A stretch of 64,000 nucleotides of DNA from contig NC_049979.1 of NCBI RefSeq assembly GCF_000003815.2, forward strand, positions 23,417,085-23,481,084, read 5' to 3'. This stretch comes from Branchiostoma floridae. Taxonomy: Eukaryota > Chordata > Leptocardii > Amphioxiformes > Branchiostomatidae. Below, piece after piece: positions 30,001-63,978 of the stretch. Numbering within the stretch: the first letter of the stretch is position 1; each line of letters opens with the position of its first letter. The notes under the pieces are model-generated. The model was not told the DNA's origin and did not search any database. It saw nothing but the letters and a program-made list of their open reading frames with translations. Both the position numbers and the translations under genes were made by a program.

Positions 30001-31487
30001 TAGCAAACCAGCAGCAGGAGGAGGAAGGAGACTCCAGCTGTAGTGATAAAGCTATAGGAGCAGGAGGATGTCACATGGACCCAGAGAAGGGCTTATCATA
30101 CCTGAACCGAGATGGTGAGAAAGACTCTTGCTATGAAACTTACTATTTCCTGTGTTTTTTTATAAAGGAAACTAACTATGGTTTGAGCTTCCTCTTGTTA
30201 TTAACAATAGGTAAGATGAATACATGTACTTTTTTTACAGCTGAGGATTCATGCCATGGGTCCCAAGGAGTGCCGTCAATGGGCTCAAGGAATGCAGCTA
30301 CAGCCTGTGCACCTGCAGCAGCAGCTACAAGACAACCTGCTGCACCCATAGCTGGTGGGGAGGCTTCTGCACCTACTGTTCCTGCTGGACCTGCAGCTGC
30401 AGGAGAACAAGTCCAGGCACGCAGTGCACCTGGGAAACCAGACAAACCAAAGCCAGCAAACATTCCAATAGGTGGCCCTCTGAATGACTCAACTGACAAA
30501 GAGCTCAAATCGGTAAATCCTGCTTTCATGTCTGTTGACAACAACTCTGAACACTTGTTCTGCTGATTGTTAACAACATTCCAAATCGCACATGCTGGTA
30601 GACAATAATGTTTTGGAGATGGAACACACAGAGATATATAGTGATGCTCTATTAATTTATAGAAGCTTAGTTCACAAATTTGTAAATTGCTTGTAAAACT
30701 AGAAGTCTGTGATGCACAAACTAAAATCCTTCAGAGAAACCTATCAACATTTAGTTGAAGAAATACAATAGTGTTTGTACTTATTGCAGCCTATTCCTGT
30801 GAATGGCCATGACAACAAGGAACACAGGTGTCCTACATCTGAAGGTAAGACCCTTCTCAGGTGTTGATGCCATTATTTTTGTGCAGACTGTGGTGCCGTT
30901 GCAAAATCTGCTCTAACAAGAGCATAATCTGGTGGAAACGTGCAGGAACTGCAATAGCAACTCAGTCTGCATTTAATTCTTGTTGACACCAGATTATCAT
31001 CCAGAGTAGATTTTACATTACTAGAGTTTGGAAATTGGTCTCATATTGAAGTTTACATTATCACTAGTCTGGTAGCAAACTATGGATGTTAACTGGAAGT
31101 GTTACATGTGTCTGTTTCTATACAGGAATCGTTCCTCCAAATGCCTTTTATGTCGGCACCAGTGACCCATCCCAGGACACCCCCAGCCCACCCCAGGACC
31201 CACAGGCAGAGTACATGGTTGATCTGGGTCAAGATATCCTTGATGACCTGAAAATGAAGCTTGACCCTCAGATGCCACTCATAAAGAATTGGCGCAACTT
31301 TGGAAGCAGGAATGGACTCAAGAATCAAGATTTGAACTACATCGACTACTGCGCTAGACAAGGACAAAGTCCTACAGTGGCAATTTTCCAGAAGTTGTCA
31401 CACTTGACTATCAAAAAGTTCAAAGAAGACTGTAAGTTTTACAAACGGATGGATGTACTGGAGGTGATGAAGAGGCATGGCTACTGA
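27008..31487 (+). CDS. TIR domain - linker - Death domain protein, 10 exons
   Basis: Exons traced in phase: 27008-27032, 27294-27416, 28008-28142, 28638-28820, 29010-29048, 29183-29449, 29902-30114, 30241-30512, 30790-30844 and 31126-31487 (1674 nt, 557 residues). The start MQRQDIQEV is the only ATG in frame in exon 1. Residues about 9-150 form a TIR domain: VRLIHAGEDQEALLKPLA (strand A/box 1 region), KKIPSAVIISKKFLS, and VPIWLGVDEEEIKRYSSRLA, the last being characteristic of bacterial-type TIR_2 domains. Residues about 160-465 are a Pro/Ala/Glu/Ser-rich linker with an internal repeat. Residues about 469-557 form a Death domain: DILDDLKMKLD, NWRNFGSRNGLKNQDLNYI, QSPTVAIFQKL, YKRMDVLEVMKRHGY. 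No signal peptide or membrane segment is seen, so it is likely a cytosolic adaptor or sensor in innate immune or cell-death signalling; that role is inferred. The last donor of exon 6 (A/GTGGTT) is weak, so that junction is least certain. Confidence 0.86.
27640..27817. mobile_element. MITE, CAGTCAAACCTGT family (TIR-Death intron 2)
   Basis: CAGTCAAACCTGTATTAGG and its inverted counterpart CTATAGACAGGTTTGACTG form the ends, each flanked by TA (Tc1/mariner-type target). Interior GGCCACCTGTCTATAGTGGCC-like subrepeats are present. Relatives lie at 36022-36239 and, degraded, near 14270-14450 and 58850-58885. Confidence 0.8.
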
Positions 31488-33048: not shown

Positions 33049-36000
33049 ATGATCAGGATCGTGAGTCTCGCCTGCCGGGTGGGAACCAGTGCCACAGCTG
33101 CCTGTGGTAACAGCGGTTCTCCTGTGTTTACATATCCCGCCAAACAAGTTCTCATCTCCAGACCTGGATCTTCACTCGGACACAGGTGCTGGTCTAGTCT
33201 TCAAACCGGCCTAGGTATCAAGAAATCTTCCGTTAACATCGCGAGGAGTTACAGGCTGCCCAGTGGAACAACCGCGAGGACATCCCAGACGAAGTCATTT
33301 TGTGGGTGTGGCGGACAACACGTGCCATTTTCCCACCAGGCTGGGAAGTCTGGAGGCGTGAGTGGTTTATTTGCCAACAGAAATATCATATCCTTTGCTG
33401 GGTTTAGTCGGGGCTTTAGATTAGGACGTAGCTCACGCCAGAAGTCTACACAGGGTTCACAGAATGTGGCGAAAACAGAAGCGAACTCTAAAGCCAAACT
33501 TGCGGCCCTCCCCCCTGCGAAGGACTTGCGTCGTCTGCTGCAGCTGGCCCGGCCGGAGAGACGGCAAGTCGTAGGTACGAGTTTGCGTACGATGTAGTAC
33601 GACTGGGGAAGGTGTGATAGTAGTGACAATTATGTATGTTACTTTTGTAGGCCGCATTTAGCCTAATTGCTCTTTTGACATTTTTAAGAACTGATGAAAT
33701 TGATGAGATGATGCAACAGGTAGGTGTAAGTTGCTTTGTAAATTCAACAAGATGATGAAATAATGCACAGTCATGCTGATCGGCAGGTACAAATGTACTA
33801 GGTTGCTCTAGAGTTGTAAGCTCTCATAGAACTATATATGTGTTTTCTTTGTCGTCCCCTTGGCCTATTCAAGTTTCAATAGTAAATTGATACTGTTTTG
33901 GGTATGATGTAATTTTGCCTGAAATAAATATATCATTTATAAAGTATTTCACTTTTATACATGTACATGCAGCCTTTGTACATTTCAACTCAATTCCACT
34001 AACATTGCATAGTCTCTATTAAATATCAGCATCAGTTGGCAAAATGAATTGGACCAATAATCAAACAATTCAAAGTAATTCTTCTTCTTCCCTTTTTTGA
34101 CATAGGCAATTAAAAACATGTTTTTAGGTTGTGTCTGTGTAATGTAGTGTAGTGGTCTGTACAGTCAGCTACTTTGCCACATCTGGTTCAAATTCTATGT
34201 AGCCGGTAGCCCAGGCTTACGCCAAAAAATAATTTTGTATCGTTTTTTTTTCGAACTTGGGTGTTAAGCCCCCTGTGTGAGTGTGCTTGTGCCATAAAAC
34301 ATTGTCCAACACACCCCTTTTAGGGCAGGGAGTTCCAGTGTGCTTGGCCAAGAAGCACAAGTCATTGTACTGCAGCTAACAAAAAAGCATTACATTTTGT
34401 CTCAAGCATTCCACTCAAAGTTTGACCTGCTTTATTTTACCTTCTGTTTTCCCCAGCTGCTATCGGCCTCCTCCTCATCTCCAGTGCAGTCACCATGGCG
34501 GTGCCCTACAGCATGGGCCGGGTCATCGACACCATCTACTCAGCAGTGGAACAGGGGAACCTGATAGACAACCTGAAGTGGATCTGTAAGATACTGGTGG
34601 TTGTCTTCATCGTTGGAGGATGTGCCAATGCAGGAAGAGTGTATCTAATGCAGATGTCAGGTAGGACTCGTGGTCCTGTGCAGAGCCTCACTTACAACCT
34701 GTACAATATACCTTGGGGAGGCTCTGCTAAACATTGAAATACTAGAAAGGTAAAATTTGCAAGCATGTTTACGTATTCAGTTTATTATCATTAAAACACA
34801 ATCATAGTGTAATTGAACACAATGGGGTGTCTTGCTACTTAATCAGTAACCATGTCAGTAACCATGGTAACAGTTGGTCAAGGTGATTGGCTTATAATTT
34901 GCTTAGAACAAAAGAAAAACAGGTAGAAGAAATGGAGCAAAAACAGTATATTTCCCTTCCCTGAAGGTAAACTTAATCAACTCGTCAAAGTCTAAGCCAG
35001 AGCATTAGGTACTATGAAACTGTAAAGAAGCACTCAAATGAATTGACCAACCCAAAGGTTTCAAAGCAAATCCAATAACTTGAATATGACATTGATTATG
35101 AAAGGTCCAAGTGCAAGTCTAGGTCCTTAGGTCTTGAGTTTGAGGGATGAAGGACTGTAAGTCATTGTGAAGGATAGTTGGTACATCCATCAAAACCATG
35201 CATCAAAGTCCCTTGATCAAACTGCCAGCTGGATTATCTGTTGATGAGTTCAGGCTAACCTATGATTTCATCTGTCTGATTGAACAATGATGAGGTGTAT
35301 AAGTCATGGATCTGAAGGATAAGGTCATGATCATGGCCTGAGCTTTTTGGTTTTCATTTCCTTCAAGTGACAGTCAGTCTTATGTAATTATATTTTAAAG
35401 CAGACTTACAGTCAGATGTCAATATTCAAATGTACTTGTGTAAGAGGTCTTATTGAAATAGGATATATGAAGCATGGACCCATGAAACTGAAAGCAAATG
35501 TTATGACAAAATGTTATGTTCGCCTATTGACGTTCTCAATTCGCAATGCTTGAGTATCACACGATAATACATTAGCTTTCCCTGACTTCCATTGGTAGGT
35601 GAAAGTAAACCTTGAAGTGCTGTTAGAATATCTAACACTCACAGCTTATTGTGGTAACTCAGGTACTCAAGGAGGGCACCTTTACTACAAGTAGTCCTTG
35701 AGTCACTACGCCAATTCAACAGCATCGCCCTCAAGTATCCACTTTAGCGGTAGCTAATGGATTTGGATCTAAGTGTCTGTTCTCCCTTCTCAGGCCAGAG
35801 GATTGTGAACAGGTTACGCAATGCAGTATTTGGCTCCATCCTGAAGCAGGAGACGGCATTTTTTGACAAGACGCGGACGGGAGAGCTCATCAATCGCCTG
35901 TCTGCGGACACCGCGCTGGTCGGCTACGCCGTGACGGAAAACATCTCGGACGGGCTGAGGTCTACAGTCGCTGTTATAGCAGGAGTTGGAATGATGGTGG

Positions 36001-39000
36001 GTTGCTACCCTGATATTGGTACAGTCAGACCTGCTCAAGAAGACCACCCAGGGGACCAATAAAGTCTGGTCTGTGTGGACAGGTCGTCACTATACACAGG
36101 ATACCTAATGCTTTTGTCGATGGGAAAAATCATATGAGGGACCACTAAATAGGTGGCCCTTATAGGTGGTCAGAGGTACAAGTTTTACTGTATATCAATG
36201 GTCAGGTGGTCCTTATGTAAATGTGGTCACCGTTGACTGTATATATATGATATTAGTAAATAACTATAGCTGACAGATGTTGAGTTAACATGTAACAAGG
36301 TGTAATATACAGTATATACTGTAAATCTTGACATGTTTGCTGTGGTTTATTTTTGTGGTTTATTTTTTACATGGTACCGTAAAATATGAATTTCCAATGT
36401 ATAATGTATTACTCCAGTGACTGTATTACAGAATTGTTTCAACCATGAAGTTAAAACGCAGCAAATTTAAAAACCTCCTTTCCCTTTCTACCATGTAATT
36501 AAGGCCACATTAAAAGTTACTGAATTTACTGAAATCAGACATGATTTTAATGTGCTTTTTCTTTCCAGTTTTATGTCTCCCCACAACTGGCATCCATCGT
36601 ACTGACAGTGGTGCCACCAATCAGCATGATCGGCATCCTGTACGGGAGATACGTGCGCAAGATCACCAAACGGGTGCAGGACGCACTGGCGAAATCCACA
36701 GAGGTGTGTATGTATGCCAGGTATATTCCTAAGGACACAAAGGATTTTTAGGGCTAGACCATTCCATTCTTATGCATTTGTGATCTCCAAGCAGGTGTTG
36801 GGAGGCTGTAGCATTTGTGCTGTTGTAATGCTTTCACTTACCTTACAGTACTGGACTAAGTGTACAATATTTTGTGCTAGTACTACCATGTTAAGCTCTA
36901 ATGGAATTGGTGTCAACATAACTCTTGGGATGCCTTCAATGCAAACGTTTGGATAGTCCTACAGGGTTGCAATGAAATTTTTTTGTTTATACCTGCACCT
37001 TTTTCTCTTCAATGCTAGGTTGCTGAAGAGAGTTTATTACAGATCAGTATTATCAAGGCCTTTGCAAAGGAAATGCGCTCATGTAAGACATACGCAGCTA
37101 AAACCGCCAGGGTCTTGGAATATGAAAAGAGTGAAGCAGTAGCAATGGCTGCTTTTGAGGGAGGAGTATGTACCAACTGCAGTTGAAGGCCTAAGGGATT
37201 CAGTTATGTACAGGGCAATAGCAAAATATGACATGAGCTTTGCTAGTATAGACATGTTTGGCTTTTGTGTCATATCTTGGCCCTGAGGATGAATCTGTAA
37301 TTCATGGCTCATCGCAGGCTTCTGCTTCTTTCACACAGGCTTCCATAGAATGATAGTTCCTTTCCTTACAACAGTTACACTGTGTCATGTCATATCTTGG
37401 ATATGCCCTGTTGCAAACTTATGGTGTTTTACTATGTGCCCATTTTATTACATGTCATATCCTCTTGTCAGGTAGCCGAGGAGAAGATAGGCAACATCCG
37501 CACAGTCAAGGCGTTTGCCAAAGAGGATAATGAGTGTAAAAGATATGCAGAGAAAATTGCTATCGTCGTCAACCTTGCCAAGCAGGAGTCTTTGGCAAAG
37601 GCAGCCTTCTTTGGATCGGTAGGAATGATGGTCCCAAAGCCTAGATGCTATCCTATTTAGCATCCGGGCCTTTCATAATAACGAGTTATAGAATCCTGGG
37701 TATACTAAAAAGGATGGCATCCAGACTGGATGCTCCAAATCAATATGCTGTATTTCTACAAGTGTCATTTTGGCATGTTTTGTTTGCAGTTTAGAAAGCT
37801 TGCTGTTGTTATAATTAGCATGCTTCAACTCGAGTATGACGATTGTATGTATGTAAGTACAATGTATGTAAAATTAGCATAAAGTTCCCCATGCATCATC
37901 AGGTGCATTTACATATACTATGCTGCTTCTTTTGTACTCTTGGATATGCATATACTTATGTGTGTTTGTGTTGTATTGCTGGATTAAAAGTCCTTGCCTG
38001 TAGTAATGAACCAATCAAACCTTACTCATCTTCCTAAGCTTGCAACATTAGCAAATGCAGTTAGGCTTATCTTGCTTTGTGCATACTGTTGAATGCATTA
38101 GCTATAAACACAAAATTCGAGATTTCCACATCTCAAACACTCTTTGATTATGTGCAGGGACATAAGTATCAAGAAACTCATTTAAGTAGTGGCAGAAGAT
38201 AGAAACATATTGTTGTGATTACTGACTGAAGTTTTTATCATAACAGATGGGGATGGCAGGGAACCTTGTAGTCCTGTCTGTGCTGTATGGAGGAGGCATG
38301 ATGATGGAGAGTGCTCACATCACTGTGGGGGACCTGTCCGCTTTCATGCTGTACACTGGGTGGGTGGCAATGTCTCTTGGAGGTAGGCACACTTTGGTCT
38401 TACAAAATCATATACAATCACATGTTTATGTAAACTGGGCCCCTTAAAAAACAAATCTACAGAGTTGAGTGGGACTACCTAGCCATTTGCAAATTCAACA
38501 AAGGAATAAGATAGATTTTAGACAACTTGATAGAGTCATATTTGTTGGGTTTATACTTGTTTAGTGCAGCCTGGGTTTACTTTCTTCCATTATTGTGATA
38601 CACATATGTATGCATTTATATGTGTAGTGTAGCTATGTGCAATGGATAGTCTTTGCAAGAAAAGAAATCTTGCAATGATGAATGAATGAATGAATCAAGT
38701 TTAAAGAAATCTGACATGATAGGATAGGAAGCATAGGATCATAAAGCATACTTTGACCCATGTAAGATCTGCCTGTTCCCTTCCCAGGTCTGACATCCTT
38801 CTACTCAGAACTGATGAAGGCTATCGGAGCAACTTCTCGCCTGTGGGAGCTGGTGGATAGAAAACCAGAGATAGCAATCGATGGTGAGATATATATGTAA
38901 CATTAATGCATTCAATTTATAACTGATTTTATGTCTTTTTTTTTTGCTGTGACCTCTTCACCGTGAAGGCAAAACCACCGCAAAAAATATTTGTTCCATG

Positions 39001-42000
39001 TTCTGCCTCTCTACCCTCTTGTCTAAGCACTACATGTGTACGTTGTGTTCATTGTTCAGTACTATAATGTGTTGGAGGCAACTGTTCTGTCTGTCTATAT
39101 CACCCTTGCAGATTGGCTACAGCAAGTTAATTTATGACTGGCTGTCTGTAAAGGCGCCATGTTTCTATTACAGTAGCAGTATGTGACTATAGAGCTGTCA
39201 CAAACTCAAAACCACTGCAGACACTCCACTTCCTCCTTACCACAAAATCAAATCAACACAAACGTAAATGCATTTACAGTGCATTTTAGGCATTTACAGT
39301 GCATTGTAATCTATTCCATGATGATCTGAAACAAAATCTAAAACAACACTGAAGGAGTATGATTGACTACTGTTTCAAAGAGGTTTGGTATCTTATGATA
39401 TGGTAGGATAGAATGTACATGAATGACCCATTAATGCATTGTAAATTTTGATTGCATTTTCCCTCCACAGTTGGACATGTACCAACTGCTGCTTCAGTGC
39501 TCGGTGCCATCAAGTTCAACGACATCCAGTTTGCGTATCCCTCACGACTTGATGTACAAGTCTTCTCCAACCTCAGCCTGTCTGTCCCTGCCGGCTCCAT
39601 AACTGCAGTGGTGGGCTCCAGTGGGTCAGGAAAATCCACCCTCGGATCCCTGCTACTCCGACTGTACGACCCAAATCAAGGTAGGAGGTAGTCTCCAAGC
39701 AGACCCTACGGTGCCTTTGAGATAGTATCAAAGCTCAGGCCAAGGAGTATAGCCGGCCAAAGGGAGTCAAACACCCTACGTTGCCTTTGAGTGAAAGTAT
39801 CAAAGCTGGCCAAGAAGTATAGCCAGCCAAGGGGAGTCGAATGGTGCCAGCTATACTCCTTGGCCAGCTTTGATACTATCTCAAAGGCACAGTAGGGTCT
39901 GCATGTAGATTAGGTAGGAGGGTCTGTATGGGGGAGGGGTCCTGGCAACGCTTAACAGTAAATTCATGAGGGTCATAAACACCTAACTGTAAATTTAGGA
40001 AGTTGGCAACACTTTCCTTTACCCACCACTTTATTCTAAATTCGAGTATTTCAATTACTAGCTGCAGGTCTGCAAACAGCAATGTACAACAACATTGTGA
40101 CTTTTGAGCAATCTTTTATTCGACTATACGTCATACAAAACATTGCTTGTCAGTAATGTGCTACAAAGAATCAAAGTGACCAATTACACTTCACAAATAA
40201 TTTACAGGCAGTTGAATTAGGGTGGATCAGCTACAATTAACCTTGAATTTCGATAGCTCACTAGACTTTTATGGAGATGGCATGCAGACCCTCAGGTAGT
40301 ATGTATCTCCTTATTCTGCCACTGAAGGTCATTGTGGGGAATTGATGTCATTTCCTCTCCTGACTTTTCCTGCTGTGTGTCATAACTATGGCTAATGTCG
40401 TTTCTAAAGGTCCCCCCATTGAGTAGTTATTTAACTCATTGCCATTGGCAGAATCCTTGCCTAACACCTGCCAGATTATGTGCGATGCATTTTGGGTTGG
40501 AATGTGGGCGACTAGGGATGAAAAAAACTGCTCTATATTCATCTGGTATAAAAGCTACAATTAATTCATTTATTTTTGCTTGGACTTAATATCATAGAAG
40601 TTAGAGAAGGTTTCGCTTTGTTGTTAATCAAATTCTACAGTTAGTAATACATTGGGAAGGCAACTTGGTATGTCAGGACTTCGCTGTGAAAAGGTAACAG
40701 TTTAAGATTAACCATAATTCCATTTGTCAAGAAAAATATAATGCCTCGTGTATTGGTCAACAGCACAGTTATAAATGCCATTCCACCTCCTGTCGCAACT
40801 TCAGGTTCAGTCACTATAGATGGAGAGGACATCAGGAACCTGAATCCACAGTGGCTCAGGACCTACGTGGGCACTGTGAGTCAAGTAAGTCACCTGGTCT
40901 TCATTACGGGCAGTGTTTACTCCACCTCTGCCTAATTCACATCAGGTTTCCTGACAGTTCAGATTGTACAAGGACATCACAGTAAATGTAACCCTAGAGA
41001 TTGACTGACTGGTGACCTCTGGACTAGAACACAGACAAACTGTACATGATCCAGATTTATGACCTTATTATAATGACACACTTTTGTGTTCAAATAGATG
41101 ATACAAAAAAGATGCATGCAAAAATGCTGTAAAAGAGGATATTTTTTCTGTGGTTTATGTTGAACTTTCAACATGAACTTTAAACCTCTGCAAATATTTT
41201 CCTTTTACAGTAAAAGTCTGCATCGCAGTTTCAACCGCAAATTTCAAACCAAAGCAATTACCCCATTTTCTCACCGGAGCAAAATTGATCCCTGCAAACA
41301 TTTCCCCTTTTACAGTACTAGCTGCCCTGCCTATTAAATAACTGTAGTGACTTAAGAGTTGAGCAAAACTTTTCTCACTGGTGAACTCAAAAGGTCATAA
41401 TTTATGATATGTTTGATTTATCATAATCAATTACTTATTGTATACATGTGTATCACTCTTAATACATCTAGTACTAAAGTAATAGTTCCATTCTTTGATT
41501 TCAATGCTACCAGTATTTCTTCTACTCCATTGCCAACTATTGAATGACATATTGTGTGCAGCTGACTTTACATTTTGAGCTGTTGCCATAATCAGATGGA
41601 AGATGGTATTTGAAGAACCAACAAATACATATTACAAGAATTTTTAAAACTGTGAAACAATAGCCTTTGTTACATTTTGTCCTTCAACACAGACATTGAT
41701 CCTTGAGAACATGTATTCTGTTTATTGTTAGTCACTTCAGCAGATCTGTGGTCTGGCGTCTGGCCTACACTAACTTACAACAGTAGATTGTGTTGGCTCC
41801 ATGTTTCTGTCCTACTACCCTTCTGACCTCTGTGGGCTTTGGTCAAGGCAGCTGCCAACACTAATCCTATTTTGGCACTGGGCTACAGTCAGAATATGGA
41901 AGTACATGTTGTTGTATTGGGTTTGCTGCCCTTTTTGAGGGCTTTATTGTTTCATATAGCATACTTCAAACCTCTTCCATATGATATAGTTGTATTAGAA

Positions 42001-45000: not shown

Positions 45001-46555
45001 GTCATAAGAGTGTGCAGCTGTATAATAAAATCAATGCTGAGAAATCAAAGTGCATCAGTGGAAAGAACACAGCTGCAGTAAATACACAGCTGTCGCTCCA
45101 TTTAACAGCCTTTTGTTGGATTTCTGAATTAGACATCAGTACTGCAACAACCTATGAAGAGGCACAAACATGTGATTGGATTTTGATTCACTGCATGCAT
45201 GGTGATCTAATGACTGCCCTTTGTGCTGCCTGAAATGGCAGGACAAAGCCTGGTTATTGATGGTCCCATGGCCATTACTCAGGTAGTCTGACACTGCCCC
45301 ATGTTATCTGGTCCTACAGGATCCCAAGATCCTCCTGTTAGATGAAGCCACCAGGTATGTACACCTCCATCCCCTTATCTGATCTAGTACTGTTTCTACC
45401 ATAATTACTTTCCATTGAGAGGTTGTAAATTAAAAAAAAAACCTCTACCCATCCAATGGTTGGCCCGAAGGACCTGTAATTATAATAAGATACACACATT
45501 GTCATTGACATCAGACCATCTACATGTTAACTTGGATGTCATTTAATATTTTTAGGATACTGATTTGACTGCTATAAATTTGTAACAATAATTTCAATGA
45601 TTGGAACATGAGGAGTCAGTTGAATTTCCAGATGAAATGGGTAACTCATGTATCAATTCTCGTGTGGCGTCATAATTCTTGTAGGAGAAAAGCTTTGCAA
45701 CTCTATATTCATTTAATATTTTTCACGTTATTATTCATCCAGTCTCAATGTAGCCAGACTGTCAAACTGTCTCAAGGGCCAACACAGGCCAGCTCCATGG
45801 CCTTAGGGCCAATATGCTTCAGAACAGTCTGGCATCTAGACTAGCCTCTGTGCAAAATAAGGTCAATGTGGTCCCTGTGTGGTTGCCAATTTCTTCCATT
45901 ACCTATATAAGGCCTAGAGAGAAAAAAGTTGTGTTTCTGGTTACCAACTAACCCTAGCAAAAACCTGCCAACAATAGCCTTTTTGGGGAGGGTCGACCGC
46001 TGGCAAAGATTTTGGATTGTAATGCTTAAAACATTGTAGAATCATTTCTGTTCCTCATTTCTGATGTGCTTGCACAATGTACATGTATGTCTGCATAATC
46101 AAAACATGATGTCGAAAATACCACTGTCCTGATGCATTTCAGTTTTGCATTGTTTAAATAGCACATGTATTTTGTTGGATCACTTCGACAGAAATCTAAA
46201 AGAGAAGAGAATTAAATCCCTACCTAAACGACCCTAATTTTTTTCAGGACATTAATCAGAAACACAGCACTAATTCTCCTAGGCCTGAGGTGATTGACAG
46301 CTGACTAATTCTATCTCCCTCAGTGCTTTGGACGCAGAGAGCGAGTCCCTGGTGCAGGAGGCCCTGGAGAGGCTCATGATTGGCAGGACAGTTATAACAA
46401 TTGCACACAGGCTGTCTACCATCAAGAATGCTGACACCATCGCGGTACTTAACAACGGTGCCATTGTGGAACAGGGAAGCTACGAGTCCCTCATGGCCAT
46501 CCCCTCTGGCATGTTCAGGAAACTGGTGGAGAAACAAACCATAGTCGCACGTTAA
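33049..46555 (+). CDS. ABCB10: ABCB10-type mitochondrial ABC half-transporter, 13 exons
   Basis: Exons traced in phase: 33049-33574, 34457-34660, 35794-35996, 36569-36703, exon 5 as either 37019-37165 or 37472-37618, 38247-38382, 38788-38883, 39471-39680, 40805-40884, 42358-42538, 44789-44832, 45320-45354 and 46324-46555. With one exon 5 this gives 2229 nt and 742 residues (human ABCB10 about 738). The N-terminus is rich in Arg and Ser and poor in acids, as in a mitochondrial presequence. The membrane domain (about 175-450) includes [19 protein letters not shown]. The nucleotide-binding domain has Walker [10 protein letters not shown] (531-539), Q-loop Gln 579, LSGGQ (638-642), Walker B LLLDEAT (659-665), D-loop SALDA (666-670) and H-loop His 694, all intact. 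ABCB10 homodimers sit in the inner mitochondrial membrane and support haem biosynthesis and redox protection in vertebrates; the same role here is inferred. Confidence 0.95.
36022..36239. mobile_element. MITE, CAGTC(A/G)(A/G)ACCTG family (ABCB10 intron 3)
   Basis: CAGTCAGACCTGCTCAAGA at the left and GGTCACCGTTGACTG at the right are imperfect inverted ends with TA on both sides. The interior GGTGGTCCTTATGTAAATG-type blocks match the family at 27640-27817. Confidence 0.65.
37019..37165 (+). CDS. ABCB10: ABCB10 alternative exon 5a
   Basis: A 147-bp phase-0 exon encodes 49 residues starting [18 protein letters not shown] and ending AMAAFEGG. It is preceded by a pyrimidine tract and TAG (CTTTTTCTCTTCAATGCTAG) and followed by donor GTATGT. 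By eye, 25 of 49 residues match exon 5b, so the two are duplicates. Relative to the usual ABCB10 pattern (EE-x-IGN-x-RTV-(K/R)-AF) the GNIRTV segment is replaced by LQISII. Either exon joins exon 4 and exon 6 without a frame change. Confidence 0.85.
37472..37618 (+). CDS. ABCB10: ABCB10 exon 5b (canonical version)
   Basis: A 147-bp phase-0 exon encodes [18 protein letters not shown] and ends AKAAFFGS, the standard ABCB family sequence for the cytosolic or matrix loop between membrane helices 4 and 5. Acceptor CCTCTTGTCAG, donor GTAGGA. It lies 306 bp after exon 5a. Confidence 0.92.
39693..39910. mobile_element. MITE, CTCCAAGCAG family, copy 2 (ABCB10 intron 8)
   Basis: CTCCAAGCAGACCCTACGGT at the left pairs with the right end around AGTAGGGTCTGC. 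Inside is a strong hairpin: GATAGTATCAAAGCTCAGGCC, a second GAAAGTATCAAAGCTGGCC, and CTTGGCCAGCTTTGATACTATCTC. It begins only 12 bp after the exon-8 donor. Confidence 0.7.
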
Positions 46556-46599: not shown

Positions 46600-49500
46600 A
46601 TATGAAAAGGTCACAGAAGCTATTAAACACGTAAATTGATATCAGCTCTCGGAAATAGGCAAAGTTAGAAGTGACTAGCATTTATTAAGGGTACATATCA
46701 GAGGTAGTTTGATAGATGGTGCAATGTCTCAGAGAATATTTTATCTTTACTAAAAGAAATTAAAGCTAAGAATTGTGATTTGGTAATGGCAGTTCTGGAT
46801 AGAACAAATATGTCACAAGACGACAACTTTGGAATAACTCTTAATCATATTCTTATTCCACGTACGTGTGTTGTTTAGAATCATTAGACATTCCCTTGCT
46901 GTATTTTGGATTTCATTCCTGTCTTGTCCTAGAACAGCCCTGGAAGAATTAAGTACGCATACAAGTGGATGGAGACATTTTATGAATTGTGAGGGAAACC
47001 ACATTTTCTCGTATGGCGTACACTGTGGGGCAGTACAAGTCTTGCAGGCCAAACCGTTGCCTGCAGTGATGACACCAGATAGATATGCGATGTTCTGTGT
47101 GCAATGCCTTCTCGTCAATTCCTGTGGNNNNNNNNNNNNNNNNNNNNNNNNNNNNNNNNNNNNNNNNNNNNNNNNNNNNNNNNNNNNNNNNNNNNNNNNN
47201 NNNNNNNNNNNNNNNNNNNNNNNNNNNAACATTAGAGTTGTGCCTTCAAAACAAACAAGGCAGCCACCGGGCTGCCTCACCCTGTCCTGGGGGATGGTGT
47301 GCTTACAACAGTTTGGTACCATCTCCCTGGTAACTGCCGACATCCAGATGATAGGTAAAAAAGTGTGGAAAAAGCGAGTATATATATATTTTAGGGACCA
47401 TATTACCTAGATGTTCTAGTATTAAGAATTAATTGTATCAACAATTGACATCCCATAACAAGTAATTGATTCTCTCTTAGCTGTTTAAATGTTGTGGGCG
47501 GAAAGTGCTTTAAACATTGTACTTACAAATTGTCATCAGCTATTTTGACCCGGGCACGAGCGCCCATTACTCACTGAAGACATGTGGAACGGAGTCGTTA
47601 AGAATGCTTTTAAGGCTCTTTTAACCCTGTGTTGGTCGTGATTCATTCATCACCGTAGAACGGGTCGTCAGGTGCCTAACGATACCTTATAACTTGCAGT
47701 GCAATAAGGGTCATTGCCTTGTGCTTTTAATATTTTGCGTCAAAATGTGTATATTTGAAAGAATTATATAGTATCATAGAAAGTATCATAGAGTGTATAT
47801 GTATCTGTACCCGTTGTTGCAGAAAAATAGGGATGTTACAGTTGCCCAACTGGTAGCAGACCCACATTGAGCTCTTGGTTCCAACTTAACTGGACCACCC
47901 TGGTTCAATCGGTTAGGGCTGCAGCCGTCTTTCGGAAGGGACCTGAAATGGGGATCTCGTGACCGAAATGGTGACTGCAACAGGTTAAAGAAAGTGCTTC
48001 GAAGGACCGAACGATATGATGTATATTTGTACCCTTTACTGCAGAGACTACATCACGCATTGATCGTACTTGTTGACATGGTGATGATAACGCAGCTCTG
48101 ACTGAAAAGCGTGGGCGTTCATAATTGTATAAAGCATGTGTGTTTTGCGCTGCGGAGATCCTATAATCGATTCCATCTCGGTTTGTACTGCCAGGCGGCA
48201 CGTTCATAAAGCCTTTCCCGAGATGGATGGAAAGTTTTGACAAGAAAGCGTCAGTGGCTGGAAAACGTTCCAGATGATGCGACCCACCTCTGCCGATGTG
48301 CGCAATCAAATGACCTTTTGGATATCCTGTTTTCCAATTGTTATAATGGGATGGCACGTCACCCAAACACCTTCTCTGACAGCACGCACATGGTTTCAAT
48401 TCTGGTGGGGGACATATCATAATCCCCAATCAGATAGATGCTGGCAATGTTAAGGCGACCTAAATCATTAAAATGACATCTGTGCCGTGGGAGGAATTTG
48501 TAACGTAGATGGCTTATATCTATCAGTCAAAACAGCCTCCTTTTGAGTTATGTTAACGGATTACATTTATAACGATCACGTAGATCACGAAAGCTCAGCG
48601 ATAAATTATCATTGATACTTGCCCTTTTATGGTCACGGTGGATGAAATCGTGACCGACCATCAGTGGTTGTAAGTGGTCACGAGGCAAGGGTGAAGATCG
48701 GTGTGTTTTGAGTATGTCAGAAGTAGCTAGCCTCCTAACAGGCTCTTCGAATCGGGCGTGCTTTCCTGATGGCGCATTATGACAACCTTGACAGATATGC
48801 CATCACTTCAGCAAAAAGACCGAATCGTGGAGCCTAAGAAGAATCGATAAAGTGTGTGTGATATTTGTGCATGTGCTCACCAAATTACTGCAATGTTTCT
48901 AATGACGTATTTCTCCTGCGGAAAGTTGTGACATATTTTGGAACTGGACGCTTTCCAAATTCGCGATTCAGAACAGTGACAAGAACTACACTAGTAGCAA
49001 AGGAAGAAATATTATTTTGACAGAACCTCTACAATCAACTAAAAGGAATAGAATAACTTTCACCACATCGTTAGCCATTGTAACAAGTCAGTGGAGCCTG
49101 ATAAAAACGATGCCGATTAGGTCGTCGTACAATTATCGGTGCTGTAAAAAAGTTGCCCTCCGACGGTTGTCCCCGAATGAGCCAAAGTCAAAAAGACTTT
49201 CACAACGCCTGGATATACGAGGTGTGCGTTCGTAGACATATCATTTCTAAATGATTGATCATAACCTTCGTAGAATCCAGCATCAGCTATATCACACGGA
49301 TGCATAACAACCTCAGCGGTGTCACCTTACACGCAGAATATCGATCATTTTCCACAAACTTAAACCTGCTATGGAATCTCTGAGTCATGTTGATCCGTGT
49401 ACGTCCCTTGACTATTTCTGTATGAAAAGAATGTACGTGATCCTAATGACACAATACAAAGCTACAGTGGCCATTTTGCGCTCCAATTGGGTTCCTCGTC

Positions 49501-56749: not shown

Positions 56750-57362
56750 TTGTGATAATAGATCTTGGGTTTAATGTCTCATTAATTCACCAATTGAGAG
56801 GTATAAGTATCTTTTACTGGAGAATTAATGTGATAGCAACCCCCTTATCACATTAATTCTCCATACAGATATCTAGTATTCTATATGGAGAATTAATGTG
56901 ATAGCAACCCCTTTATCACATTAATTCTCCAAAGAGAGATCCAGGATTCTTATATGGAGAATTAATGGATTCCTATCTGGAGAATTAATGTGATAGTAAC
57001 CCCTTTATCACATTAATTCTCCAAAGAGAGATCCAGGATTCTTATATGGAGAATTAATGTGATAGCAACCCCTTTATCACATTAATTCTCCATAGAGATA
57101 TCCGGGGTTCTTTTACTGGAGAATTAATGTGATAGCAACCCCTTTATCACATTAATTCTCCAAAGAGAGATCCAGGATTCCTATCTGGAGAATTGATGTG
57201 ATAGCAACCCCTTTATCACATTAATTCTCCATAGAGATATCCAGGATTCTTCTACTGGAGAATTAATGTGATAGCAACCCCTTTATAACATTAATTCTCC
57301 AAAGAGAGATCCAGGATTCTTATATGGAGAATTAATGTGATAGCAACCCCTTTATCACATAT
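56750..57362. repeat. Palindromic tandem array, left copy
   Basis: About eight units of roughly 69-71 bp. Each unit is a near-perfect palindrome, GGAGAATTAATGTGATAGCA then ACCCCTTTATCACATTAATTCTCC, followed by a spacer such as AAAGAGAGATCCAGGATTCT. The asymmetric centre AGCAACCCCTTT gives the array an orientation. One unit is interrupted near 56965. Confidence 0.92.
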
Positions 57363-57518: not shown

Positions 57519-58205
57519 CTAGAAAGGCCGACATTTGCTTGAGAGCAAATACAGCATATTTCAGCCATCTCCCTCATGCAACAATAGGCCTTGAGGTCGT
57601 TGACCCCTTTGGCCATTGGAAAATGACCCAAAAAATTCCCAAATAATGAAATATATCATTTTAAAGTGTTCCATGCCAAACATTATACATGGGTCATTTG
57701 GATAAATATCTAGAGCACCCCTTTACCAAATTTCGGGTCATTTGGTTGTAAAACGAGGGAACAGGAGCCAAAAATGTCCAATTTTTGTCTAAAAATGGCC
57801 ATAAAATTGCAATATTAAGCATTATGTTGTACTGTATGGAAAAACTGTTATTAAATTCATGCGCACAAAATTTTAGGGCACTTTTAGACCAAATTTCAGG
57901 TCATTCGGTTGTAAAACGAGGGTACAAGAGGCAAAAATGTGCTTTTTTTGTCAAAAAATGGCAAAAAATCGCAAAATTAAGCATTTTGTTGTACCGTATA
58001 CCAAAACTGTTATTAAATCTGGGTGGGCATATGATCGGGGCACCTCTGTACCAAATTTCATGTCATTCGGCTGTAATACCAGGGTACAGGAGCCCAAAAT
58101 ATACATAAAAATTGACAAAAACCTCAATAAAATCATTTCAAAGGCAGATATGAAACTAGAAAGGCCGACATTTGCTTAAGAGCAAATACAGCATATTTCA
58201 GCCAT
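57519..58205. repeat. Direct repeats bounding an AT-rich repeat segment
   Basis: The block beginning ACTAGAAAGGCCGACATTTG and ending ATATTTCAGCCAT occurs at 57519-57568 and 58155-58205. Between them are copies of the CCAAATTTC(A)GGTCATTCGG / CAGGAGCCAAAA repeat also found at 60700-61640. Confidence 0.75.
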
Positions 58206-59397: not shown

Positions 59398-60790
59398 ATC
59401 AGACCGTCAACAAAAGTCGCACGGCGGCTAACGGCGCAGCGAAGATACTAGCGCTATAAATAAGCGCTTCAACTAAGGATGGCAACCCGTACAATATTTT
59501 TGTATACTGTTGACCTAAGTAAAGTTTGTTGTTTATGAGGTTTTAGTTGTCTTTGAAGCTTTGACCCGAAATATTTTAAAGTCAAACTGCTGAAGAGAAG
59601 TAAGTGACTGGTACGATTATCGTAGATATGGCCCTAAAAAAACTGATAAAAGAAGCCTTCTCAATAGTCTAAAATGCAAGAGCTTCCGGGGGGGCTTCGC
59701 CCACCTGGGTCCCCCCCCCCCCCCCCACAGTGGTCCTGCCCCTGGACCCCGCCAGGGACATTCGGCGGCCCCCGGACCCCTGTCCGACGCTTTGAAAAAA
59801 TCCTGGCGAGAAGTCTGTACGGCCTGAGTCTTCAAGTTAACGTATTGTGTGGTCCCGCTTATGAATATTAATTAGCCTTCGCTTTCCTCTTCGCTGATTG
59901 GCTGAACCATTAATTGAATTAACTCTTCCTGCCGGCTAGACGCAGGTGCAGATGTCGGCTCTGTGGGGTGAACGTCCGAAAGGTCATGGCATGGAGAACG
60001 AAAGAAAACCAATTTCCCCTAAAAAAAGTGCTGTAATTAAGCCTTTTACAGTACTTTATGCCAAAAATTTTACTTTGATCATTTTACCAACTATCTTATG
60101 CCTATCTATACCAAATGTTACTCATACCAGGGTACAGGGGTGCAAAATATACCGTTATAAGACCGTCAACAACAGTCGCACGGAGCTAACAGCGCAGCGA
60201 AAATACCATCGCTAGCGTTTCAACTTCGGATAACAAGTTATAAGTACTGTTGAACTCAGTAACGTTAAAGTTTGTTTTTAGTTGCCTTTGACGGTTTGAC
60301 CTGAAATAGTGTTACGCTAAACTCCTGAAGAGAAGTTAAGTGACTGCTGCGATTATCATAGATATGCCCCTAAGAACTGATACAATATAAAGCCTTCTGA
60401 ATAGTCTAAAATGCGAGAGCCTTAGGCGGGCTTTGCTCCCCCTGGCGGGAACACTGCTATATACGGGATCATGAGGCCCAGCTTATGAATATTAATTAGC
60501 CTTTGGCCTCCTCTTCGCTGATTGGCTAGGTCTTTGATTCAATTAACTCTCCGGCTGACGCGCACAGGTGTGGCTCTGTGCGGGGTCACGGAAGGTCACG
60601 TCAGGAGGCCAAAAGAAAACAAATTTCCCTTCAGAAAAGTGCCAAAATTAATAATTTTTAAGTTGTTTATGTCAAAAATTTTACTTGAATCTTGTTACCA
60701 AGTATCTAATGCCTATCTATACCAAATTTCAGGTCAATTAATTGTAATACCAGGGTACAGGAGCCAAAAGTGTCCTTTTTTGATCAAAAA
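59398..60790. repeat. Diverged tandem duplication, about 0.7 kb per copy
   Basis: Copy A (about 59398-60146) and copy B (about 60151-60790) share, in order, GACCGTCAACAA(A/C)AGTCGCACG, CTGAAGAGAAG, GCCTTCTNAATAGTCTAAAATGC, CTTATGAATATTAATTAGCC, CTCTTCGCTGATTGGCT and ATGCCTATCTATACCAAAT. Copy A holds a 15-base C run near 59712. Neither copy has a supportable gene. Confidence 0.75.
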
Positions 60791-61640
60791 TTGGCCAAAA
60801 ATCGCAAAAATAAGCATTTTGTTGCACTGTACACCAAAAGTGTTATTGAATTTATATGAAGGGATTACCAAGGCACATCTGTGTCAAATTTCAGCTCATT
60901 CGGTTGCAATACCAAGGTACAGGAGCCAAAAGTGTCCTTTTTTGGTCAAAAATTGGTAAAAAAATCGCAAAAATAAGCATTTTGTTGTACTGTACACCAA
61001 AAGTGTTATTGAATTTATATGGGGGCATTATCAAGGCACATCTCTGTCAAATTTCAGCTCATTTGGTTGTAATACCAGGGTACAGGGGCCAAAAGTGTCC
61101 TTTTTTGGTCAAAAATTGGTCAAAAAATCGCAAAAATAAGCATTTTGTTGCACTGTACACCAAAAGTGTTATTGAATTTATATGAAGGGATTACCAAGGC
61201 ACATCTGTGTCAAATTTCAGCTCATTCGGTTGCAATACCAAGGTACAGGAGCCAAAAGTGTCCTTTTTTGGTCAAAAATTGGTCAAAAAATCGCAAAAAT
61301 AAGCATTTTGTTGTACTGTACACCAAAAGTGTTATTGAATTTATATGGGGGCATTATCAAGGCACATCTCTGTCAAATTTCAGCTCATTTGGTTGTAATA
61401 CCAGGGTACAGGGGCCAAAAGTGTCCTTTTTTGGTCAAAAATTGGTCAAAAAATCGCAAAAATAAGCATTTTGTTGTACTGTACACCAAAAGTGTTATCG
61501 AATTTATTTGGGGGCATTATCAAGGCACATCTCTGTCAAATTTCAGCTCATTTGGTTGTAATACCAGGGTACAGGGGCCAAAATATACAGTTTTGGTCTA
61601 AAATTGACCAAAAAATCTCAATTAAATCATTTTAGAGGCA
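60700..61640. repeat. Tandem repeat, unit 162-163 bp, with dimeric higher order
   Basis: The motif G(A/G)GCCAAAAGTGTCC or its equivalent starts at 60761, 60923, 61086, 61249, 61412 and 61575. Two unit types alternate: one has GAAGGGATTACCAAGGCAC, the other GGGGGCATTATCAAGGCAC. The result is a repeated dimer of about 326 bp (60923-61248 and 61249-61574). Frames across it are open by chance and shift with the 163-bp period. Confidence 0.9.
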
Positions 61641-63078: not shown

Positions 63079-63978
63079 TTATCACAACTTTGTCAAATTA
63101 ATTCACCAGTAGGAGAACCGTGGATCTCTGTTTGGAGAATTAATGTGATAAGGGGGTTGCAATCACATTAATTCTCCAGTAAAGATTTCTGGATCTTTCT
63201 ATGGAGAATTAATGTGATAAGGGGGTTGCTATCACATTAATTCTCCATATAAGAATCGTGGATCTCTTTATGGAGAATTAATGTGATAAGGGGGTTGCTA
63301 TCACATTAATTCTCCAGTAGAAGATTTCATGATCACTCTATGGAGAATTAATGTGATAAGGGGGTTGCTATCACATTAATTCTCCAGTAGAAGATTTCTG
63401 GATCTTTCTATGGAGAATTAATGTGATAAGGGGGTTGCTATCACATTAATTCTCCATATAAGAATCGTGGATCTCTTTATGGAGAATTAATGTGATAAGG
63501 GGGTTGCTATCACATTAATTCTCCAGTAAAGATTTCTTGATCTCTCTATGGAGAATTAATGTGATAAGGGGGTTGCTATCACATTAATTCTCCAGTAAAG
63601 ATTTCTTGATCTCTCTATGGAGAATTAATGTTATAAAGGGGTTGCTATCACATTAATTCTCCAGTAGAAGATTTCTGGATCTTTCTATGGAGAATTAATG
63701 TGATAAGGGGGTTGCTATCACATTAATTCTCCAGTAGAAGATTTCATGATCACTCTATGGAGAATTAATGTGATAAAGGGGTTGCTATCACATTAATTCT
63801 CCAGTAGAAGATTTCTGGATCTTTCTATGGAGAATTAATGTGATAAGGGGGTTGCTATCACATTAATTCTCCATATAAGAATCGTGGATCTCTTTATGGA
63901 GAATTAATGTGATAAGGGGGTTGCTATCACATTAATTCTTCAGAAGAAGGTTGAAAATCCTTTGGCGAAAAAATGTGA
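63079..63978. repeat. Palindromic tandem array, right copy (12 units)
   Basis: Units start at 63134, 63203, 63272, 63342, 63412, 63481, 63550, 63619, 63689, 63759, 63829 and 63898, a period of 69-70 bp. Each is a 44-bp palindrome, GGAGAATTAATGTGATAAGG to CACATTAATTCTCC, plus a spacer. Five spacer variants recur in different orders. The centre AAGGGGGTTGCT is the reverse complement of the left array's centre, so the two arrays are inverted relative to each other. The ends AACTTTGTCA and TGACAAAGTT are themselves inverted. Confidence 0.93.

Follow-up and report, generated by a model that had tools for sequence, protein, structure and literature searches.

Tandem homologous copies of the coupling-helix exon in an ABCB10-type transporter gene of Branchiostoma floridae, most likely spliced one at a time

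An ABCB10-type half-transporter gene of the amphioxus Branchiostoma floridae carries two homologous copies of its fifth coding exon, 5a and 5b, side by side. Our reading, to which we give a probability of about 0.77, is that exon 5 was duplicated in tandem long ago, that both copies remained coding exons, and that a transcript would normally carry only one of them, with 5b as the default and 5a expressed as a weaker, regulated alternative. Exon choice would then swap the second intracellular loop (ICL2) and the coupling helix that plugs into the nucleotide-binding domain (NBD), and each choice would give a transporter with a differently tuned joint between the NBD and the transmembrane domain (TMD). 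The work concerns a stretch of 64,000 nucleotides of contig NC_049979.1 (assembly GCF_000003815.2), referred to below as the window.

The ABCB10-type gene and its duplicated exon

The gene was modelled by hand on the + strand from an ATG at 33049 to a stop codon at 46555. All modelled introns are GT-AG, and there are 13 coding exons, encoding 742 residues, when one exon 5 is used. The exons referred to in the text are as follows.

33049..33574, + strand: exon 1 of the ABCB10-type gene (gene model), with the ATG and a long N-terminal stretch
36569..36703, + strand: exon 4, constant, 5' of the slot (gene model); donor GAG/GTGTGT, phase 0
37019..37165, + strand: exon 5a, derived copy of the coupling-helix exon; open frame, GT-AG flanks, 25/49 identical to 5b, codon positions 1 and 2 conserved
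37472..37618, + strand: exon 5b, by its matches the canonical ABCB10 coupling-helix exon (gene model); human ABCB10 is the best structure match
38247..38382, + strand: exon 6, constant, 3' of the slot (gene model)
46324..46555, + strand: exon 13, final coding exon (gene model)

Residues 176-742 contain one Pfam ABC_membrane domain and one ABC_tran domain, that is, the single TMD and single NBD of a half-transporter. Among solved structures, ABCB10 is the nearest relative. The closest match to slot 5b is human ABCB10 (E 5.1e-11), with P-glycoprotein (P-gp) as the runner-up (E 0.0043). The longer comparison took the protein from exon 4 to the C-terminus (429 residues), and human ABCB10 (PDB 3zdq, 4ayt and 7y48) aligned over 427 of those 429 residues with 591.5 bits in a single stretch. 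P-gp-type chains score slightly higher in total, at 626.1 bits, but only as the sum of two halves (343.3 + 282.5). The ABCB10-type identity proposed in the first-pass annotation is thus borne out by structure matches, Pfam domains and gene model together. The ABCB10 transporter sits in the mitochondrial inner membrane and is connected with hemoglobin synthesis and with protection against reactive oxygen species (PMC4459825), and the long N-terminal stretch that exon 1 places before the TMD is suggestive of a mitochondrial leader. In Table 1 of PMC1276783, two methods give human ABCB10 12 introns and a third gives 13. The count of 12 agrees with the 13 exons modelled here, so one of the two copies is an extra exon; by its intron count the human gene has space for a single slot exon, and the amphioxus gene has two.

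Exons 5a and 5b are adjacent, fill a single slot between exons 4 and 6, and share a length of 147 nt, phases of 0-0 and GT-AG sites; their proteins align without gaps at 25 of 49 identical residues. These values, recomputed here along with the coordinates, match those given at first pass. Aligned to 5b without gaps, 5a scores 110 on BLOSUM62, and 20,000 shuffles of 5a gave a mean of -27 (sd 14) and a maximum of 33. Together with the equal length and phase and the 25/49 identity, this confirms the tandem exon duplication. The product is 742 aa with 5a alone or 5b alone, 791 aa with both and 693 aa with neither, all in frame, and the earlier statement that joint inclusion would add 49 residues therefore holds. 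No third copy occurs in the window. When the whole 513-Mb assembly was searched with the 5a protein, two candidates were scored, both matched at E<=10, and these were 5a itself and 5b; no further copy was found.

Several other features of the window were recorded in passing. Upstream, an open stretch at 31128-31484 runs up to a stop codon and matches the Pfam Death domain (23.7 bits, cutoff 22.6); it is apparently the end of another + strand gene. Just 3' of the ABCB10-type gene, 100 N at 47128-47227 mark an assembly gap. Intron 8 holds a strong inverted repeat at 39690-39910 (score 39; scan window from 39628), in which the opposed copies contain GTGCCTTTGAGATAGTATCAAAGCT. Minisatellite-like arrays of units of about 69 nt, with the palindromic pair TCACATTAATTCTCC / GGAGAATTAATGTGA, lie at 56810-57360 and 63093-63949 and have the same sequence in both places, and arrays of units of about 162-163 nt with a similar consensus lie at 57715-58100 and 60723-61621.

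Divergence, constraint and splice-site strength of exon 5a

The two exons are identical at 82/147 nucleotides, which by codon position amounts to 33, 33 and 16 of 49, with a pS of 0.79 (saturated) and a dN of 0.47. Full synonymous randomisation of these two proteins is expected to leave 14.8 +/- 3.0 third-position matches. The observed 16 equals this expectation: synonymous sites have reached saturation, and so the duplication is an old one. Neutral drift was simulated with 4000 descendants of 5b per distance, each scored for being stop-free and at least 25/49 identical. The fraction passing was 0.30 at 0.25 substitutions per site and 0.0075 at 0.5; it was 1/4000 (0.00025) at 0.75, and none passed at 1.0, 1.25 or 1.5. 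The third positions of the actual pair resemble the simulation at distances of at least 1.5 (17.2/49 at 1.5), of which the share of 5a itself is about 0.75 or more, assuming similar branch lengths for 5a and 5b. Since simulated neutral descendants at such distances were seldom or never so similar and stop-free, 5a has, given the same assumption, very probably been a selected coding exon, with purifying selection acting on it through most of its past. Constraint on 5a is in this way sustained by the codon-position pattern, the simulation and the synonymous saturation. Both copies come out as under purifying selection in a comparison that is pairwise and confined to one genome, with recent change or loss on the 5a branch beyond its resolution.

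The copies have not changed equally. Over the 47 positions that align to human ABCB10, 5b shares 26 residues with the human protein and 5a shares 18; ten positions are altered in 5a alone and two in 5b alone (exact p 0.039). By these counts 5b is the canonical form and 5a the derived, faster-evolving one. At the same 47 positions, ten residues pair 5b with human, eight pair 5a with 5b (24 identical less 16 common to all three) and two pair 5a with human, a distribution compatible with duplication either before or after the split from vertebrates.

Splice sites were scored with a leave-one-out matrix drawn from the gene's own sites; with only 11 donors and 11 acceptors behind it, score differences are rough. 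On this scale the 5a donor (2.57) is the lowest of the 13 in the gene, compared with 5.61 for the 5b donor and 4.62-10.67 for the 11 constitutive donors. The acceptors of 5a (2.5) and 5b (3.35) both fall among the scores of the 11 constitutive acceptors, which go down to -1.87 and up to 19.4. When the 12 best GT or AG sites in 36560-38260 are ranked, the 5b donor is sixth and the 5b acceptor twelfth, and neither 5a site is among them. The scores suggest that 5b is the default exon. They would also be expected if 5a were a once-functional exon in the course of being lost, spliced rarely or never while 5b does all the work, and the faster change of its protein and a GC3 of 0.39, compared with 0.59 for the CDS, point the same way. 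Such an exon, however, has to be squared with a frame free of stops and frameshifts, with intact GT and AG, and with a pattern that, in this one genome, fits constraint over most of its history. We consider loss of this kind improbable, although it deserves to be kept in mind.

The slot and the ICL2 coupling helix

Alignments to other ABCB chains, and to human P-gp for its numbering, place the start of the slot at P-gp Val253 by way of the shared VAEE...IRTV motif. The first 25 residues of the slot correspond to P-gp 253-277 and so fall within ICL2, which spans 250-277 (PMC4505440). The pair had been assigned to the coupling region at first pass, and the motif alignment agrees. The accompanying statement, that 5a changes exactly this core, is correct in part. 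The main change in 5a does convert GNIRTV to LQISII, with loss of the Arg and Thr found in human ABCB10 and P-gp and with Ser and Ile at the positions of P-gp R262 and T263. Nevertheless, 5a preserves VAEE and KAFAKE, as well as the Ile that precedes the Arg. The Ala facing the NBD socket, which is Ala-266 in P-gp, is retained, as is the Phe that comes next.

The mutational record of P-gp ICL2 offers a point of comparison, as it concerns the same loop with the same VAEE...I...AF frame; the P-gp changes are engineered point mutations, whereas here a whole exon is naturally replaced. In P-gp, 14 of 28 ICL2 mutations blocked maturation (PMC4505440). Twelve of the maturation-blocking positions fall in the slot, and at these 5a equals 5b nine times and differs by I/L or I/V twice. 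The one remaining difference is at the R276 position, where 5a has Thr. At the remaining 13 slot positions the copies agree five times, and the contrast is not significant (Fisher one-sided p 0.075). Of the nine shared positions, 268, 269 and 274 carry residues unlike those of P-gp in both copies, so the sensitivity seen in P-gp may not carry over. As for the lost side chains, R262A and T263A singly reduce P-gp maturation to about 55-60%, and the double mutants R262A/R905A and T263A/T906A retain about 70% of ATPase activity (PMC4505440); losing these side chains therefore need not kill a transporter. The Pfam ABC_membrane model scores the 5a isoform at 183.8 bits, 20 bits below the 5b isoform (203.8) and with a cutoff of 28. 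Among bacterial relatives, 12 loci from one scan were available, and just two of them (L004 and L005) align over the slot, in three alignments, too few for a count of variation.

From this pattern of change and retention we infer that the 5a version would be a working but retuned NBD-TMD joint. An effect on coupling or assembly would fit the position of the slot better than a switch of substrate, which appears less likely.

One copy per transcript and known exon swaps

With a length of 147 nt divisible by 3, and open frames in both the double and the exon-less products, neither reading frame nor nonsense-mediated decay (NMD) enforces exclusivity. Exons that are multiples of three are likewise placed outside the NMD scenario for exclusive splicing in PMC6071210. 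The gap between 5a and 5b is 306 nt and both exons have ordinary GT-AG sites; hence neither spliceosome incompatibility nor crowding is evident. Intron-intron duplexes were sought among the three introns around the exons, and no pair outdoes sequence drawn from a Markov model: of 120 samples each, 22, 37 and 64 did at least as well. The inter-exon intron does contain repeats, each of them weak against the local background:

37210..37236, + strand: left arm of an inverted repeat lying between 5a and 5b
37268..37280, + strand: 13 nt identical to a part of the right arm
37385..37411, + strand: right arm of that repeat, complementary to the left arm (37210-37236) at 22/27 positions

An inverted repeat of 27 nt, one arm of which is partly copied over 13 nt, resembles, in layout, one docking site with two selectors. 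Shuffles do not reproduce it: 0/400 match the inverted repeat and 0/2000 give a 13-nt exact direct repeat. The same 64 kb, divided into 408 half-overlapping windows that include the tandem arrays and the inter-exon intron, yields an inverted repeat as strong in 27/408 (one of these covering the inter-exon intron), a direct repeat of at least 13 nt in 73/408 and both kinds in 15/408. Given the 27/408, we do not claim these repeats as a docking-selector device. The fold of the 5a-5b intron as a whole is unremarkable (z -0.21), as is that of intron 4 (z 0.47). The intron between 5b and 6 (37619-38246) folds with a z of -3.16, with 0/20 shuffles as good, and carries, close to its 5' end, a short inverted repeat that scores 16; it possibly harbours a small mobile element.

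The case for mutual exclusivity is thus that the two exons are homologous and equally long and that the double product is implausible, and on these grounds 5a and 5b are most likely spliced one at a time. Were 5a instead a cassette exon joined with 5b, the membrane domain would gain 49 residues. The in-frame double product would allow this, and no exclusion mechanism emerged from the duplex and repeat tests. Double inclusion would, however, place a second copy of the loop, and of the first part of the helix after it, in a fold of six helices, and the aligned chains examined show no such insertion, which makes joint inclusion distinctly unlikely. Still less probable is a role for 5a as a poison exon, for which one further site has to be considered:

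37082..37083, + strand: cryptic donor CAT/GTAAGA within 5a (last exon base 37082); matrix score 6.6, compared with 2.57 for the 5a donor

Use of this donor would give a 64-nt, frame-shifting exon and shifted products that end after 396 or 446 residues, with decay of the transcript as the proposed outcome. A poison exon would need no constraint on 49 residues, yet the likeness of 5a to 5b continues beyond 37082, with 11 identities in the final 24 residues, and the donor matrix was built on just 11 donors. An assembly artefact or allelic mis-join has no observation in its favour and is very improbable, as the copies match at only 82 of 147 bases and their 100-nt flanks align no better than 300 shuffles (upstream 11, shuffle mean 8.5 and maximum 15; downstream 6, shuffle mean 7.8).

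One-for-one exon swaps of this kind are already known in related pumps. In the ABCC family, tandem duplicated exons are swapped in human ABCC9, Drosophila mrp and C. elegans mrp-1, described as distinct and unrelated events (PMC9741552). As in ABCC9 and the MRP genes, an ABC transporter here has homologous tandem exons, with the swap predicted rather than observed; unlike them, the gene is an ABCB half-transporter and the exon is that of the ICL2 coupling helix. The pair also resembles mutually exclusive exons under docking-selector control (PMC6071210; PMC8042237) in being tandem, homologous and of a length divisible by 3, but differs in that the tests of the introns around 5a and 5b gave no convincing docking-selector pair. 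An ABCB10 example was not found in the literature searched: no report of tandem or mutually exclusive exons in ABCB10 turned up, in a search that left subscription journals mostly uncovered and is weak evidence of absence, and none pairing ABCB10 with amphioxus was found. PMC1276783 tabulates intron counts for ABCB10, and that material does not describe such exons; in the relevant part of PMC12686395, zebrafish abcb10 is listed as mis-spliced, with the type of event left unstated.

If 5a is expressed, evolution has maintained two complete versions of a coupling helix within one gene, and tandem-exon switching extends from ABCC/MRP transporters to a mitochondrial-type ABCB. The two copies would then be a ready-optimised pair of sequences for probing how ATPase activity is coupled to the membrane in an ABC exporter. 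More tentatively, and at odds we would call rather long, splicing in this animal may exchange one coupling helix for another in a mitochondrial ABC exporter, such that cells co-expressing the two forms could build homodimers as well as 5a/5b heterodimers with unequal joints. If true, such heterodimers would be a natural experiment on asymmetry of the transmission interface, in a transporter whose human ortholog has links to both heme synthesis and oxidative stress.
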